Below, piece by piece: positions 30,092 to 37,134 of a stretch of DNA of 64,000 nucleotides. The notes beneath the pieces are model-generated. The model did no database searches. It was not told the origin of the DNA and saw nothing but the letters and a program-made list of their open reading frames with translations. This DNA is from Pseudoxanthomonas yeongjuensis (GTDB lineage: Bacteria > Pseudomonadota > Gammaproteobacteria > Xanthomonadales > Xanthomonadaceae). Where the stretch lies: NCBI RefSeq assembly GCF_010093345.1, contig NZ_PDWT01000001.1, forward strand, positions 620,001 to 684,000, written 5' to 3'. The position numbers were made by a program, and so were the translations under genes. Position 1 is the stretch's first letter. Every line of letters starts with the position of its first letter.

Positions 30092-31375
30092 ATGTTTACG
30101 AGAAAAACCCTGATCGCGTCGGCGATAGCGTTGGGCCTCGGACTTCTGGGACCAGCTTCCGCGGCGGAAAACACCGAGAACGGAGATGGCGACGATCTGC
30201 TGGTCGCAGTGGATGTAGTCGCCACGGACAACAGCAACAACAGTGATAACAGCGACAACAGCGATAACAGCGCGAATGGCGTTGCCGGTGCCGAGGGTTA
30301 TGGCAACGCTGCCGCCAACAACGGTGGTACCGCAACAGCCAATTTCTCCAGTTCCTTCAATCACAGCAAGGCCATTGCCACGACCAAGCTCGAAGGCTAT
30401 GTGAGCGACGTCTACGTGCATGACATCGGCAATGTCGCCAAGAATTCCGGCGACGCCAATGGCGGAAAAGGCGGCAAGGGCGGAGCCGGCTATGGCGGTG
30501 ATGGCTATGGCGGCGAAGGCTACGGCGGCAACGGTGGCGACGGCGGTAACGGTGGCAACGGCGGCAACGGCGGCGATGCCGACAACGGCAGCGCATCGGC
30601 AGGCGATTCCAGCAATGGCAGTGCCACCATCGGTGATGCCTATGCTGGAAACGGCGGTCGTGGCGGACGCTCCGACAACAACGGCAGCGGCAGTGGCGGC
30701 GATGGCGATGGCTATGGCGGCCATGCCGGCGGCTGGAGTGGGGCAGGCGGTGGCGACGCTGCTGGTGGTGGCGGTGATGGTGGCGGCCTGGCCGCGGCGG
30801 GTGGCGGTGACGGCAGCGGCACCAGCGGCGACAGCACCACCGGCGATACCACCGGCACGGGCGGTGCTGGTACTTCCGGCGATGGCACTGGCACCGGCGG
30901 TGCCGGCACTGGCACCGGCGGGGCTGGCACGGCCGGGCCGGCGACCGCAACCGGCGGGGCCGGCAGTGGCACCGGCGGCAACAGCGGCGACGTGGCGAGC
31001 ACCGCGGGCAACGGCGGCGATGGCGGGTCGGCCACTAATGGCGATGCCACCAATGGCGGCGCCTCGTCCAGCGCCACCAATGGCGACGCCCTGGCAGGCG
31101 ACGGCGCGACTGGCGCGGTCGGCGCGGAAGGCGGCGTCGGCGGCGATGGCAATGGCGGCGTCGGTAATGGCGGCGTCGGCAATGGCGCCACCGGCGGGGC
31201 CGGCGGAAATGGCGGATCGCTTGCCAACGATGCCGGTACTTTCGACATGTCCAACAACATGACCAGTGTCGGGCAGTCGGCGGCGGGCATCATGGTGGCA
31301 GCGCAGAACAGCGGCATGGCGTCGCTGATCCAGCAGGGCATCACGGTGCAGGCCAACCTGACCGTAGGTCCGTAA
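30092..31375 (+). CDS. Glycine-rich exported protein, predicted substrate of the Fap-like system
   Basis: Protein of 427 residues with a Sec signal peptide (cleavage after A-S-A, about residue 24). Then come an Asp/Asn/Ser stretch with repeated D-N-S (about 46-60), a more ordered segment (about 83-120) containing K-L-E-G-Y-V-S-D-V-Y-V-H-D-I-G-N, a very Gly/Asn/Ala/Asp-rich region of about 265 residues built of G-G-x and T-G-G-A-G units, and a distinct 38-residue C-terminus rich in Gln, Asn and Met ending V-G-P. It sits where Pseudomonas fap operons encode fibril subunits, but the body is Gly-rich rather than a FapC repeat. A surface fibre or biofilm role is inferred. Confidence 0.75.
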   Translation: MFTRKTLIASAIALGLGLLGPASAAENTENGDGDDLLVAVDVVATDNSNNSDNSDNSDNSANGVAGAEGYGNAAANNGGTATANFSSSFNHSKAIATTKLEGYVSDVYVHDIGNVAKNSGDANGGKGGKGGAGYGGDGYGGEGYGGNGGDGGNGGNGGNGGDADNGSASAGDSSNGSATIGDAYAGNGGRGGRSDNNGSGSGGDGDGYGGHAGGWSGAGGGDAAGGGGDGGGLAAAGGGDGSGTSGDSTTGDTTGTGGAGTSGDGTGTGGAGTGTGGAGTAGPATATGGAGSGTGGNSGDVASTAGNGGDGGSATNGDATNGGASSSATNGDALAGDGATGAVGAEGGVGGDGNGGVGNGGVGNGATGGAGGNGGSLANDAGTFDMSNNMTSVGQSAAGIMVAAQNSGMASLIQQGITVQANLTVGP

Positions 31376-31387
31376 ACGCAGGACGGC

Positions 31388-31419
31388 ATGCACCGGGCTG
31401 CCCTCGCAGCCCGGTGCAT
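31388..31419 (+). other. Intergenic hairpin within the Fap-like operon
   Basis: A perfect 14-bp stem (31388-31401 with 31406-31419) with a CCTC loop and no T-run, 12 bases after the first gene. It could stabilise the upstream message or partly stop transcription, giving more of the first protein than of the export machinery. Confidence 0.7.
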
Positions 31420-31472
31420 CTCCCGCGCCGAGCCGCAGGGGCGGCAACGTGCGGGACGTATGGGAGAAAGCC

Positions 31473-31904
31473 ATGAATATTACTCGTACGATTTTCCTGC
31501 TTGCGTGCATTGCCGGAGCCAATACCTGCCTTGCCGAGGAAAACGCGTTTCCTGTACAGGGACAGGGCGCTGATCTCCTGCAAGCCCCGGTCGAGGTTCC
31601 GGACTTGTCGCCCCTAGCCGTCGCCGGACCGGTCGCGCTGGAGGAACCCAGCGCCATCGGCATTCCGGTCGACCCCGGAGTACTGCAGGAACTGCGTGGA
31701 GGCGAAAGCAGTGTCGACAATAAAGTCCTCACCGACGGATGGGTGGATGGCAACGTGGCCGAGGACGTGGTCACCGGTTCCAACGCCATCAATGGCGATG
31801 CCTTCGCCAACACATCCGGGATCAGCACCGTCATCCAGAACACCGGTAACAATGTCCTGATCCAGAACGGCATGGTGGTCAACGTGCAGTTCGTCGGTCC
31901 GTGA
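31473..31904 (+). CDS. Exported protein with double-glycine motif (Fap-like minor component)
   Basis: Protein of 143 residues with a Sec signal peptide (cleavage near C-L-A, residue 21). After a Pro/Val-rich stretch it carries I-P-V-D-P-G-V-L-Q-E-L-R-G-G (64-77), which has the spacing of a C39 processing site (Leu at -7, Leu at -4, Gly-Gly). The remaining 66 residues are Asn/Val-rich and end in I-Q-N-T-G-N-N-V-L-I-Q-N-G and V-G-P, like the C-terminus of the first gene. GGGAGAAAG precedes the ATG. The C39 peptidase gene starts one base after its stop. It is related to the fourth gene through the V-D-P...R-G-G motif. Confidence 0.72.
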   Translation: MNITRTIFLLACIAGANTCLAEENAFPVQGQGADLLQAPVEVPDLSPLAVAGPVALEEPSAIGIPVDPGVLQELRGGESSVDNKVLTDGWVDGNVAEDVVTGSNAINGDAFANTSGISTVIQNTGNNVLIQNGMVVNVQFVGP

Positions 31905-31905
31905 C

Positions 31906-32598
31906 ATGGACGTGGGCAAGCTCTGCCTAGGCCTGGGCCTGGTGGCGTCGTCGTTGATGCTGCCAGCGCAGGCCAAGGAGATGACGTTGCGCGTGCCGCA
32001 AGGCGCAAGCTATGCGGTGCGCGTTACCAGTCTGAAGGAGGCGCGTTACCAGACCACCATCGCGCAGCAATACGATTTCAGCTGCGGCTCGGCGGCCACC
32101 GCCACCCTGCTTACCTACCAGTACGGCCATCCGGTGGATGAGCGCCAGGTTTTCCTGGAAATGTATGAGCATGGCGACCAGGCCAAGATCCGGAAGCAAG
32201 GATTTTCGCTTCTGGACATGCGCAGGTACCTCGAGTCGGAGGGCTTCCAGGCCGATGGTTTCGAACTGCCGCTGGAAAAACTTTCGGAAGAGGGCCTGCC
32301 CGCCATCGTCCTGCTCAACGACCGCGGCTACCGGCATTTCGTCGTGGTCAAGGGTCTGCGCAATGGACGCGTGTTGCTGGGTGATCCGGCCCGCGGCACG
32401 CGCGCCATGCCGCGTTCCCGTTTCGAAGCGCTGTGGGACAACCACTTGCTATTCGTCGTGCACAACCGCCGCGACCGCGCGCGCTTCAACCAGGCCGTGG
32501 ACTGGCGTACCGCGCCACCGGCACCGCTGGAACTTGGGGTCCAGCGCGATGGCCTGCGCAACATTGCCCTGCCGAGGCGCGGTGTGGGAGATATCTGA
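31906..32598 (+). CDS. fapD: FapD-like periplasmic C39 peptidase
   Basis: Cysteine protease of 230 residues with a Sec signal peptide (about 1-23) and a single peptidase C39 domain. The catalytic set is complete: oxyanion Gln 54/55, C60 in D-F-S-C-G, H144 in Y-R-H-F and D160 in G-D-P-A-R-G. Unlike bacteriocin exporters it has no membrane or ATPase domain, as in FapD of Pseudomonas amyloid operons. C39 enzymes cut after Gly-Gly; both neighbours, one base upstream and three bases downstream, carry such a motif after a signal peptide. The gene order C39 peptidase, small exported protein, barrel matches fapD-fapE-fapF. Confidence 0.85.
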   Translation: MDVGKLCLGLGLVASSLMLPAQAKEMTLRVPQGASYAVRVTSLKEARYQTTIAQQYDFSCGSAATATLLTYQYGHPVDERQVFLEMYEHGDQAKIRKQGFSLLDMRRYLESEGFQADGFELPLEKLSEEGLPAIVLLNDRGYRHFVVVKGLRNGRVLLGDPARGTRAMPRSRFEALWDNHLLFVVHNRRDRARFNQAVDWRTAPPAPLELGVQRDGLRNIALPRRGVGDI

Positions 32599-32601
32599 GC
32601 C

Positions 32602-33114
32602 ATGAACAGAATCCTTTTCCTCGGTGTGTTGTGCGCGATCTTTGCCAGCCCGCCCGCGATTTCCGCCGATGCAGCGTCGCCGGACTCCGCTCCCGACGCC
32701 CTTGGCAACGAATGGGTGCCGGTCGATCCGGCCATCCTTGCCAAAATGCGCGGCGGCATGCTGCTGCCTTCCGGACTGTCGCTTTCATTCGGCATAGACA
32801 GGCTGGTGTACGTCAACGGCGACCTGGTCGCCAGCACGCGCCTGCATATCGCCGACATCGCCCAGATGACCCGGGAAGACGCGGCGGCCCTGGTGGCGCT
32901 AAACCAGGGCACGGTCATCCAGATCGGCAGTGGCAACGTCATCGCTCCGGGTCCGGCCACCAATGGGCTGGTGATCCAGAACACGCTGGACAACCAGGAC
33001 ATCCGCGCCCTGACCAGTCTGCAGGTTGGCGTGGACACCTTGGGCATGTTGCAGGCAATCAATAGCTACGACGCGCTGTATAACGCCTTGATCGCGTCGC
33101 CCGGTGGCCCATGA
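32602..33114 (+). CDS. FapE-like exported protein with double-glycine motif
   Basis: Protein of 170 residues with a Sec signal peptide (cleavage after I-S-A, about residue 21). V-P-V-D-P-A-I-L-A-K-M-R-G-G (39-52) has Leu at -7 and Met at -4 from a Gly-Gly, like the second gene. The following domain contains G-L-V-I-Q-N-T-L-D-N-Q (122-132) and a Leu-rich C-terminus, features I associate with FapE. It starts 3 bp after the C39 gene and its stop overlaps the start of the barrel gene by ATGA. Role as a minor fibre or nucleator component is inferred. Confidence 0.72.
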   Translation: MNRILFLGVLCAIFASPPAISADAASPDSAPDALGNEWVPVDPAILAKMRGGMLLPSGLSLSFGIDRLVYVNGDLVASTRLHIADIAQMTREDAAALVALNQGTVIQIGSGNVIAPGPATNGLVIQNTLDNQDIRALTSLQVGVDTLGMLQAINSYDALYNALIASPGGP

Positions 33115-34463
33115 ACACGGAGAAGGCTGTGCAACGGAAGACATCGAAGCATCATGCGAGCCTGATCCCGCTGGTATGCGCCACGCTTTCGTTCTGCTAC
33201 GGCGCCAATGCCCAACAGGCCACCGGCACATGGGATGCGAGTCGGCTGGCTGTCCTGCAGCAGCAGATCAACGAGCAATCACAGAAGCTTGAAGACATGC
33301 GCCAGGCGATAGGGGTGCAGGAAGAAAGCCTGTCCCGCCTGCAGCGTGCACTGGATGACGAGGTCCTGGCCAGCGCGCGCGCGCGCGGCATCCAGCCGGC
33401 ACCGCCGCACCCGATGCTGCAGTCCGCCCCCGCCTATGCACAGGCACAGAGCCGCCCGGTGGAAGAAACACGGCAGCCCGTCGGGCAGGCGCCGGAAACC
33501 GATGACCGGCCCCCGGAAGTGGCGCAGATCTTCGACCAGCCCGGGGTGCTTACGCCACCCGGGAAGTTCGTACTGGAACCTTCGCTGCAGTACGGTTATT
33601 CCTCCAACGATCGCGTTGCACTGGTCGGATACACCATCATCCCGGCGCTGCTGATCGGATTGATCGATGTGCGCCAGGTGAAGACCACCTCGGCGACGGC
33701 CACCCTCACCGGACGTTACGGCCTGAACAACCGCTTCGAGCTGGAGGCAAAGATCCCCTATGTCTACGTCAACGGCGACACGGTCAGCCGAGAGATCTTC
33801 ACCGGCACGGCGGTGGACAATGTATTCAACTCCCACGGCGACGGCTTGGGCGACGTGGAGGTCACCGCGCGCTACCAGATCAACCGGGGCGGCCCGGACA
33901 AGCCTTTCTATGTGGCCTGGCTGCGCTACAAGAGCAGGACAGGCAAGGACCTCTTTGAGGTGGTGACCGACTGCATCACCCGTTGCGTCGGCAACACCAC
34001 CGGCACCGGGCTGCCCCTGGACCTGCCGACCGGCAGTGGCTTCGAGGCGATCCAGCCCGGCGTCACCTGGCTGTTTCCCTCCGACCCGGTGGTGTTTTTC
34101 GGAAGCCTGAGCTACCTGCACAATTTCAAGCGCAATAACGTGTCGCGCACGCTCGTCGACGGCCAGCGCGAGCTGCTCGGCGACGTGGAAGCCGGAGACA
34201 TCATCGGCTTCAACCTGGGCATGGGCCTGGCCTTGAACGAGAAGGCCGCCATCAGCATCGGCTACGACCAGAACCTGGTGGCCAAGACCAAGCAGAATGG
34301 CGAGGCGGTCGCCGGTTCGGTGAATGTCACCCTGGCTACCCTGCTGCTGGGAGGCACGTACCGGTTCAACGAAAAAGCGTCACTGAACGTGGCGCTGGGC
34401 GCGGGCCTGACCCGTGATACCCCGGACGTGAGCGTGACGGTGCGCGTGCCCGTCACTTTCTGA
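33111..34463 (+). CDS. fapF: FapF-like outer-membrane amyloid secretion channel
   Basis: Protein of 450 residues: Sec signal peptide (cleavage about residue 35), a coiled coil (about 43-92, Q-Q-Q-I-N-E-Q-S-Q-K-L-E), a Pro-rich linker (about 94-133), then a beta-barrel that ends in V-T-F with a C-terminal Phe. The barrel starts with I-F-D-Q-P-G-V-L-T-P-P-G-K and continues E-P-S-L-Q-Y, G-Y-T-I-I-P-A and L-I-D-V-R, all typical of FapF, the trimeric channel gated by an N-terminal coiled coil. It is the last gene of the operon. It should carry the processed subunits across the outer membrane. Confidence 0.87.
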   Translation: MNTEKAVQRKTSKHHASLIPLVCATLSFCYGANAQQATGTWDASRLAVLQQQINEQSQKLEDMRQAIGVQEESLSRLQRALDDEVLASARARGIQPAPPHPMLQSAPAYAQAQSRPVEETRQPVGQAPETDDRPPEVAQIFDQPGVLTPPGKFVLEPSLQYGYSSNDRVALVGYTIIPALLIGLIDVRQVKTTSATATLTGRYGLNNRFELEAKIPYVYVNGDTVSREIFTGTAVDNVFNSHGDGLGDVEVTARYQINRGGPDKPFYVAWLRYKSRTGKDLFEVVTDCITRCVGNTTGTGLPLDLPTGSGFEAIQPGVTWLFPSDPVVFFGSLSYLHNFKRNNVSRTLVDGQRELLGDVEAGDIIGFNLGMGLALNEKAAISIGYDQNLVAKTKQNGEAVAGSVNVTLATLLLGGTYRFNEKASLNVALGAGLTRDTPDVSVTVRVPVTF

Positions 34464-36106: not shown

Positions 36107-36529
36107 ATGCGTGCAGTAATGGTGCCTTTTATTTTATTCATCGCTTCCAATGCCAGCGCACAGCAGGTCTACAAATGCGTCCGTGGCAACGAAGTCAGTT
36201 ACCAGTCCACAGCTTGCGACGGCACCCAGAAGGTTGTCAGGCAGTGGGATGCGACCCCGGAGCCGGAACCAACGAGCGATGAGCTTCGCCAGCGTCAGCT
36301 GAAGAGCCAACGCGGTAGCGCCCAATCCGCACAGCTCAGCCGCGCTGCAGGTAGCGGACGGAAACGCTACGCGAGCAACCACCGGGAATCCTGGAGCAGG
36401 AAACCCGGCGTGTCGCGTTGCGATGCCGCCAAGGCGCGCCGCGAAGCGAAGCTGAAGTCGGTCGGACTGAAACGGACGTTCGATCTGTTGCGCAAGCTGG
36501 ATGACATCGTCAACGAAGCCTGCAAATAG
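36107..36529 (+). CDS. DUF4124 domain exported protein
   Basis: Protein of 140 residues with a short signal peptide (cleavage near A-S-A, residue 17). A DUF4124 domain follows, with the typical Q-V-Y-K-C and a second Cys in S-T-A-C-D-G, which probably form a disulphide. The C-terminal half is basic with another pair of cysteines. The start at 36107 has GGGAGCAGGGA upstream; the longer open frame before it is not coding. Nine bases after its stop begins an IS3-type transposase remnant, so its present 3' end may have been shaped by that insertion. Function unknown. Confidence 0.78.
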   Translation: MRAVMVPFILFIASNASAQQVYKCVRGNEVSYQSTACDGTQKVVRQWDATPEPEPTSDELRQRQLKSQRGSAQSAQLSRAAGSGRKRYASNHRESWSRKPGVSRCDAAKARREAKLKSVGLKRTFDLLRKLDDIVNEACK

Positions 36530-36537
36530 GTTCCAGG

Positions 36538-37134
36538 CTGGCGCTGCGTCGGCGCAAGAAGGTCAAGTTACCCGTCGCCTTGCGCTAGAAGCTGGCGCCA
36601 GCGGCCGCGCCCAACGACGTGTTGAGCATGGACTTCGTGTTCGACCAACTGGCCAACGGTCGCCGGATCAAGCGCCTGACCATTGCCGACGACTTTACGC
36701 ATGAGTGCACAAGCATCGTCGTTGACCATGGCATCAGCAGTGCCTGCGTGGTGCGCATGCTGGACCAGGCCGCATGCTTCCGCGGCTATCCGCGTGCGGT
36801 GTGCACCGACAACGGTCCGGAGTTCACCAGTCGCGCCTCCATCGTCTAGACGCAGCAGCACGGCATCGAACACATCCTGATCGAACCCGGAAAACCCATG
36901 CAGAACGGCTATATCGAGAGCTTCAATGGAAAATTCCGCGACGGGTGCTTGAACGAGCACTGGTTCATTTCGCTGATCCAAGCCCGCGAAGTCATCGCTG
37001 ATTGGCGATGCGACTACAACGAGGTTCGATCGCACAGCAGTTGCGGCCGCATCCCGCCGTCACAGTTCGCCGCCAATTATCGCGCACAACAAGACGACAA
37101 CGCTGTACCCTCCAGCCCCGGGCTTTATCAGTAA
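36538..37134 (+). pseudogene. IS3-family transposase OrfB remnant
   Basis: One reading frame gives the C-terminal two thirds of an IS3-family DDE transposase (rve domain): M-D-F-V-F-D with the first Asp, C-T-D-N-G-P-E-F with the second, and N-G-Y-I-E-S-F-N-G-K-F-R with the Glu. It is interrupted by two in-frame TAG codons, at 36586-36588 and 36847-36849, with no frameshift. OrfA and the 5' part of OrfB are missing, as are recognisable terminal repeats. It is therefore an old, inactive fragment. Confidence 0.9.

Follow-up and report, generated by a model that had tools for sequence, protein, structure and literature searches.

Here we report that two exported proteins encoded on either side of a stand-alone C39 peptidase gene of Pseudoxanthomonas yeongjuensis carry the same leader-like motif, which ends in Gly-Gly. 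The three genes belong to a group of five plus-strand genes (genes 1-5, 30092-34463) in a stretch of 64,000 nucleotides (hereafter the window; contig NZ_PDWT01000001.1 of assembly GCF_010093345.1, positions 620,001 to 684,000), to which all coordinates refer. We consider it probable that the peptidase, the product of gene 3, removes leaders from the products of gene 2 and gene 4 in the periplasm. The related peptidase FapD was shown in 2017 to be needed for amyloid secretion, and its substrate was left open in the parts of that study used here (PMC5557850).

Gene 2 (31473..31904) encodes a small exported fibre-type protein of 143 residues, and gene 4 (32602..33114) a FapE-like exported protein of 170 residues. 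The motif reads VDPGVLQELRGG in gene 2 (31668..31703; residues 66-77) and VDPAILAKMRGG in gene 4 (32722..32757; residues 41-52), in each case covering positions -12 to -1, and takes the form h(-12)xxxxL(-7)xx[LM](-4)RGG (h, hydrophobic) in both. An earlier inspection of the letters alone (the sequence-only reading) had pointed to such a motif in two exported proteins flanking a C39 gene, with hydrophobic residues at -4, -7 and -12 before Gly-Gly; both are indeed there, and these are the features that define a double-glycine leader. Cuts are predicted after nucleotide 31703, leaving a mature gene 2 protein of 66 residues, and after nucleotide 32757, leaving a mature gene 4 protein of 118 residues. 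In the crystal structure of LahT with a leader, as described in the extracts of PMC6363468 used here, residues -4, -7 and -12 occupy a hydrophobic groove and a short helix runs from -4 to -11; processing was blocked by a charge at -4 or -7 and by the majority of substitutions at -12. The same extracts give the ComA consensus before Gly-Gly as L(-12)xxxE(-8)L(-7), where the window motifs have V or I at -8 in place of E.

Residue shuffles of the mature proteins produced the pattern h-L-h-RGG in 87 of 200,000 cases for gene 2 and in 251 of 200,000 for gene 4. The AlphaFold2 model of gene 4 is only moderate (mean predicted local distance difference test score (pLDDT) 71.7, predicted template modelling score 0.49), and only local features were used: a helix spans residues 43-49, pLDDT falls below 50 at residues 51-54, from the Gly-Gly on, and the first strand starts at residue 61. 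The best match in a fold search with this model had an expectation value (E) of 0.33. A weak match of a gene 4 relative to a lantibiotic model (E 0.11) was not used.

Gene 3 (31906..32598) encodes a stand-alone, FapD-like C39 peptidase of 230 residues. It matches Pfam PF03412 (Peptidase_C39) above the cut-off (E 6e-22, 78.4 bits, cut-off 22), and falls below the equivalog cut-off of the FapD model NF058616 (C39_FapD; E 9.3e-42, 142.8 bits, cut-off 330) and the cut-off of the FilB model NF050078 (E 2.6e-35, 122.1 bits, cut-off 475). Judged by its sequence it is a FapD homologue that lies outside curated FapD by score. Alignment to LahT places the catalytic Cys60 at 32083..32085, His144 at 32335-32337, Asp160 at 32383-32385 and the oxyanion Gln54 at 32065-32067, all on the plus strand. 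All four residues are invariant in the 128 counted relatives, which are those among 130 aligned whose downstream partner could be read. The description of gene 3 in the sequence-only reading as a stand-alone C39 peptidase with intact Cys, His and Asp is confirmed. The N-terminus, MDVGKLCLGLGLVASSLMLPAQA, is by eye a typical signal peptide. The C39 domain is its only domain match, so the enzyme is not fused to an ATP-binding cassette (ABC) transporter as PCAT/AMS peptidases are. A fold search with a model of gene 3 returned the peptidases of PCAT1, LahT and ComA among the top solved matches (7n87, 6mpz (LahT) and 3k8u), together with two papain-like toxin structures.

Conservation was examined in 198 genomes of the same bacterial family, 86 of which had a C39 match. 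The matches comprised 42 gene 3 orthologues (62-100% identity, blastp) and 49 further stand-alone C39 genes with 36-46% identity, of which 40 were examined; the remaining matches were weaker. All orthologous operons (42/42) retain RGG in gene 2 as well as in gene 4. An overlapping set of 50 named loci had it in gene 2 in 50/50 and in gene 4 in the 49/49 detected. In the fiftieth locus, L187 (Pseudoxanthomonas sp. NC8), the gene 4 homologue has the RGG block in another frame, where it was found by eye; similarity switches frame before the expected end, and this homologue may be broken or misread.

With the proteins aligned at the Gly-Gly, neither gene shows any variation at L(-7), R(-3), G(-2) or G(-1) in 42/42 operons; the motif occurrence in gene 2 had been picked with L, M or Y at -7. 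Position -12 is V, I, L or M in 84/84 proteins, and -4 is Leu, Met or Ile apart from three Gln and three Tyr in gene 2 and one Ser in gene 4. The residue frequencies of gene 2 and gene 4 overlap by 0.33-1.0 over positions -13 to -1, with the minimum at -8, and by 0.0 at +1 and 0.0-0.40 up to +24; residue +1 is D, E, T or A in gene 2 and F, Y or M in gene 4. The N-terminal edge of the block is less sharp (overlap 0.57 at -14 and 0.26 at -15). Pairwise identity among gene 2 proteins is 0.15 before the block, 0.50 inside it and 0.17 after it, ungapped values that insertions depress outside the block, and the part between Gly-Gly and the stop varies little in length (64-77 residues, median 68). 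A conserved block with poorly conserved flanks and a fixed remainder is the expected look of a leader cut at Gly-Gly, as is predicted for gene 2. A comparison of the gene 2 and gene 4 family profiles (hhalign) gave a probability of 96.6% with the block included and of 5.9% (E 0.0064) for the parts after Gly-Gly alone; the latter do not align convincingly, in keeping with the claim of the sequence-only reading that the two proteins otherwise differ. The motif was not found in gene 1 in 42/42 orthologues, nor the full motif in gene 5 in 41/41 orthologue frames, many of which end at the edge of the examined stretch.

The motif is also tied to the peptidase across genomes. A profile of the motif alone (18 residues, 20 rows) recovered gene 4 (E 5e-7) and gene 2 (E 2e-5) from the 3.9-Mb genome of the strain, scores that are favoured because the profile's own rows include the two window motifs; the next match had E 0.25, and no further substrate was found in this genome below E 0.2. 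At a threshold of E <= 0.01 the profile had matches in 41 of the 42 family genomes with the orthologous peptidase and in 4 of the 156 without it (Fisher p 1e-36, which overstates the evidence because family members supplied the profile and genomes of relatives do not count as independent). Of the four matches in peptidase-free genomes, the best two (E 2e-4 and 5e-4) are internal to a protein that by eye resembles mannose-1-phosphate guanylyltransferase, and the other two are weaker (E 0.0026 and 0.0066). Among genomes with the peptidase, G099 gave no profile match though the block is present, and G122 gave an additional match away from the peptidase (E 0.008). Chance or a GC-rich artefact as the origin of the motif is ruled out by the shuffles, the genome-wide profile search and the 42/42 conservation.

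Further stand-alone C39 loci were obtained by searching 369 and 398 genomes with the FapD model. Of 137 loci, 130 were counted, after omission of five repeats of other loci and of L090 and L124, which could have been retained. The block is carried by the next gene downstream of the peptidase, FapE in Fap systems, in 128/130 loci. Because the scan rule demanded Gly at -2 and, at -1, a residue from the set GRKSAT, the presence of G(-2) in 128/128 is partly by construction. Shuffled partners reached the downstream scoring level in 23 of 2560 cases. The two loci lacking the block under this rule are L112, where the stretch ends soon after the gene, and L105, where an RGG block (MRDNELGQIRGG) lies about 830 bases past the peptidase gene and not directly behind it, which suggests a longer or different partner. 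In an alignment of 31 chosen partners the block falls into one column in 31/31, the RGG of gene 4 being aligned with Pseudomonas-type FapE, a label that rests on curated models; this alignment, which included three of the eight FapD-linked partners, used pieces cut around the block and is not independent.

Of the 128 loci, 61 have Gly and 67 have Arg or Lys as P1, the residue that follows G(-2). P1 Gly marks one peptidase clade and P1 Arg/Lys the Fap clade: on a tree of 74 of the 128 peptidases (every third of L001-L042 and of L043-L082, plus all others) the two classes are separated by one change with support 100/100, and 0/500 shuffles needed as few. Peptidase lineage and substrate P1 therefore go together. 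Columns 72, 157 and 207 of the peptidase separate the two classes perfectly and many others nearly so; with one switch on the tree, pocket columns cannot be distinguished from descent, and no S1-pocket residue is claimed. Since P1 is Gly in one clade and Arg/Lys in the Fap clade, the double glycine is one dialect and no general code. The general code would read h(-12)xxxx[LM](-7)xxh(-4)xG(-2)-P1, with -4 usually hydrophobic and P1 specific to the lineage. Gly-Gly in every C39-linked partner is ruled out by Arg/Lys at P1 in Fap and in the other C39 operons of the family, and by Gln in FilA.

The latter operons of the family (L043-L082) are other stand-alone C39 fibre operons of two kinds, in which the gene 4 equivalent has either RGR-Y, the Fap-like kind, or mostly [ST]GK-F/Y. 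They have subunits with VAAGVGNxQxN repeats upstream; L067 has several near-identical subunit genes in tandem. Two genomes each have two stand-alone C39 genes close together, about 5 kb apart in one (G636:C78, L121) and about 3 kb in the other (G684:C11, L130), possibly as duplicated operons.

The closest known system is Fap of Pseudomonas, in which genes for a FapE-type protein and a FapF-type channel come after that of a stand-alone C39 peptidase with a signal peptide, the order reproduced by genes 3, 4 and 5. FapD scored above its curated cut-off in 8 of the 398 genomes, and in 8/8 the gene after it has [LV](-12)xxxE(-8)[LM](-7)xx[LM](-4)RG[RK][YF]; in the three that were aligned, this block shares its column with the RGG of gene 4. 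One of these partners, cut to 150 residues, matched the FapE model with E 1e-69 and 234 bits, where the cut-off of 250 applies to the whole protein. The block ends about 20 residues past the likely end of the signal peptide of FapE; in L113, RGR ends at residue 39. Fap differs from the window in having Arg or Lys at P1 instead of Gly, and an RGG-bearing gene 2 was not found beside it in the flanking stretches examined. With the same block ending in R-G-R or R-G-K, FapE is the predicted substrate of FapD, which would cut after these residues and before Tyr/Phe. In the portions of Rouse et al. (PMC5557850) used here, FapD C38A abolishes FapC secretion, complete processing of the N-terminus is reported for FapE alone among the Fap proteins, the N-terminal peptides of FapE are missing in mass spectrometry, and the -12/-8/-7/-4 block is not mentioned. 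A specific site at the FapE block is compatible with these facts, though the unseen stretch exceeds the predicted propeptide, and by inference a trypsin digest would be unable to tell a cut after Arg or Lys from trypsin's own. Among the literature matches listed, a cut at the RGG site is unreported and the motif is unnamed in titles and abstract openings.

In the Fil system of Acinetobacter and relatives, the stand-alone C39 peptidase FilB lies beside the exported FilA, which has [ML]DDxxLxxxTGQ in the register of a C39 leader. The form [ML]DDxxLxx[VI]TGQ was found in FilA-type partners at 5 of 8 FilB loci, and L189-L192, L195 and L220 have FilA-type partners in that register; the one FilA tested is Pfam DUF6160. 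Fil differs in having Gln at P1 and partners not recognisably related to genes 2 and 4, and gene 3 scores below the FilB cut-off. The PCAT/AMS systems (LahT, ComA, PCAT1) share the hydrophobic -12, -7 and -4, the Gly-Gly and the peptidase fold; their enzyme is a cytoplasmic domain of an ABC exporter, whereas the enzyme and the substrates in the window have signal peptides by eye. The proposal of the sequence-only reading that Gly-Gly is the substrate motif of FapD-type enzymes is wrong in that form: the block is present in FapE, but the second Gly gives way to G-R or G-K in the 67 loci named above and to G-Q in FilA.

Ten named loci of a plasmid collection, which had not been used to find the pattern, served as a test set; they were hand-picked among 15 listed of 46 records, with four near-copies and one other omitted. 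A strict RG[GRK] was found downstream of the peptidase in 8/10 and upstream in 5/10, against 1.9% and 3.1% of shuffles, respectively. A wide rule was passed by 9% of shuffles downstream and 14% upstream, and its chance matches were one each in Polymorphobacter, Indioceanicola and Acinetobacter. RGG occurs on both sides in Cupriavidus metallidurans, C. campinensis, a Vibrio and two Photobacterium, the upstream RGG of Photobacterium lying about 1.1 kb ahead of the peptidase match. Polymorphobacter and Croceicoccus have RGG downstream, Aeromonas has RGR-Y downstream, and FilA of Acinetobacter has TGQ and reads MDDAALSAATGQ. The distance from Gly-Gly to the stop in upstream partners is 64, 64, 69 and 69 residues, the Vibrio aside. 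A plasmid search with FapE found nothing.

These observations can be assembled into a mechanism. Genes 1-5 would form a Fap/Fil-like fibre secretion operon whose products are exported by Sec. The C39 peptidase of gene 3 would then bind the proteins of genes 2 and 4 at the short amphipathic helix, with its hydrophobic -12, Leu -7 and Leu/Met -4, and cut after Gly-Gly. The propeptide so removed, measured from the probable end of the signal peptide, would be about 55 residues long in gene 2 and about 30 in gene 4. Once matured, the two proteins would leave through, or gate, the gene 5 channel, so that the gene 1 fibre protein is secreted. This is the two-step maturation put forward in the sequence-only reading, and the C39-type anatomy of the block, its conservation and its tie to the peptidase make it the best reading. 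From the motif, its register and conservation, the peptidase tie and the coupled P1 switch, we infer the cut, its exact bond and a role in export.

Several points weigh against this reading. The agreement between P1 and peptidase lineage is expected from co-evolution and equally from inheritance of whole operons. Arg, Lys or Gln at P1 would be ill-suited to the LahT pocket, which narrows at the cut site according to the extracts of PMC6363468. In gene 2-like proteins of 20 more distant operons of the Gly branch, Gly-Gly is kept in 5/20; the remaining ones read RGT, RGM, RGR, RGQ, RAK, RAM or SGR, and several combine R-A-x with a polar -4. In view of these and of the Gln in FilA, either the enzymes take several P1 residues or the block also serves without a cut. 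The expectation that Gly-Gly is kept wherever the peptidase occurs, upheld in the 42 orthologous operons, therefore holds fully for gene 2 only near this lineage. In gene 4, pairwise identity is 0.57 at +1 to +13, as a structural element would have it; conservation past the Gly-Gly means that the pattern alone cannot tell a leader from a domain edge there. The profiles of gene 2 and gene 4 also have a stretch of 20 columns around VIQN in common after the Gly-Gly, and common descent may explain part of the shared block. The FapE stretch unseen by Rouse et al. (about 70 residues in the portions of PMC5557850 used here) is longer than the roughly 39-40 residues predicted from L113 and L118, which are other strains than theirs. 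The window proteins that match Fap models (FapB, FapD, FapF) all do so under the cut-offs, and gene 4 has no FapE-model match. Among the test loci, Indioceanicola has a degenerate form only (ASVDELDRSVGR, by eye), and in the Vibrio the distance from Gly-Gly to the stop is 29 residues, at a locus that may be damaged because its peptidase match is in two pieces.

Some of these points would also suit a block that is docked or sorted and never cut, with the C39 protein or the FapF-type channel holding FapE or gene 4 as a chaperone and the last residues of the block free. At P1 the block has Gly, Arg/Lys or Gln, although -12 and -7 are maintained, as is Gly at -2 (Gly or Ala in gene 2 homologues). 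The distant gene 2 homologues, most of which lose Gly-Gly, keep the register in 19/20 under a loose rule, which 491 of 4000 shuffles also passed (12%; when the distance to the stop was required as well, 52 of 4000, or 1.3%, passed). The literature, in the excerpts drawn on here, also describes C39 subsets with a purely chaperone function. We nevertheless judge this explanation unlikely: the catalytic residues are intact in 128/128 counted relatives, FapD C38A abolishes secretion and FapE lacks N-terminal peptides in mass spectrometry (both in the portions of PMC5557850 used), and Gly at both P1 and P2 in 84/84 proteins of the window's operon family would be needless for docking.

That the block is instead a structural part of a domain inherited from a common ancestor of genes 2 and 4, unrelated to the peptidase, would account for the conservation of gene 4 beyond Gly-Gly and for the hhalign probabilities (96.6% with the block, and still 5.9%, E 0.0064, after it). 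It agrees poorly with the low conservation of gene 2 outside the block (0.15 before it, 0.17 after it), with the drop in confidence of the gene 4 model right at the Gly-Gly (51-54) and with FilA, a member of another Pfam family (DUF6160) that has the same register beside its own C39 gene, and we regard it as very improbable. Slighter still is the prospect that the peptidase really acts on the channel (FapF or gene 5), a view once put forward for FapD, and that the RGG block is incidental: GG and GA motifs do precede the start of the FapF barrel construct, and linker peptides are missing (Rouse et al., PMC5557850, in the portions used), but the full motif is absent in 41/41 gene 5 frames, many ending at the stretch edge, and present in gene 4 in 42/42. 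Beyond the proposed removal of leaders by gene 3, stand-alone periplasmic C39 peptidases may share one leader code, with FapE, gene 2, gene 4 and FilA/DUF6160 as pro-proteins and the S1 site re-tuned once between Gly and Arg/Lys; on this wider proposal we are slightly more doubtful than confident.

The block yields one residue-level prediction for FapE and two for the window operon, and makes the question of the FapD substrate directly testable. If the predictions hold, processing of the double-glycine type would be placed in the periplasm, and proteolysis may be what licenses an outer-membrane fibre exporter.

Gene 1 (30092..31375, plus strand) encodes a long, Gly/Asn/Asp-rich exported protein of low complexity, with a repeat-like VAAQNSGMASLIQQG stretch at the C-terminal end; it is the probable main fibre subunit and ends in Gly-Pro, as do 27 of 42 orthologues. 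It has no NCBIfam match at E <= 1 (FapA, FapB and FapC models). Gene 2 matches the FapB model NF058557 weakly (E 0.041, 13.5 bits, cut-off 190), so that no FapA, FapB or FapC was recognised by curated models in genes 1-5. Gene 4 likewise has no NCBIfam match at E <= 1, including the FapE model NF058559, and is FapE-like by its position and the aligned block only. Gene 5 (33111..34463, plus strand) encodes a FapF-like outer-membrane channel, with a match to NF058560 below the cut-off (E 1.3e-47, 162.5 bits, cut-off 700). Genes 2-5 are tightly packed, with 1 base between genes 2 and 3, 3 bases between genes 3 and 4 and an overlap of 4 bases between genes 4 and 5; no transporter gene is among genes 1-5, and the signal peptides of all five were assigned by eye. 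The 3.9-Mb genome has a single match for gene 3 and a single match for the FapF model, and the closest named relative by gene 3 is Pseudoxanthomonas gei (89%). Downstream of the operon, at 36501-37134, pieces that by eye resemble an IS3-type transposase lie in different frames (e.g. 36619-36849 and 36898-37134), apparently the remains of a broken insertion element.

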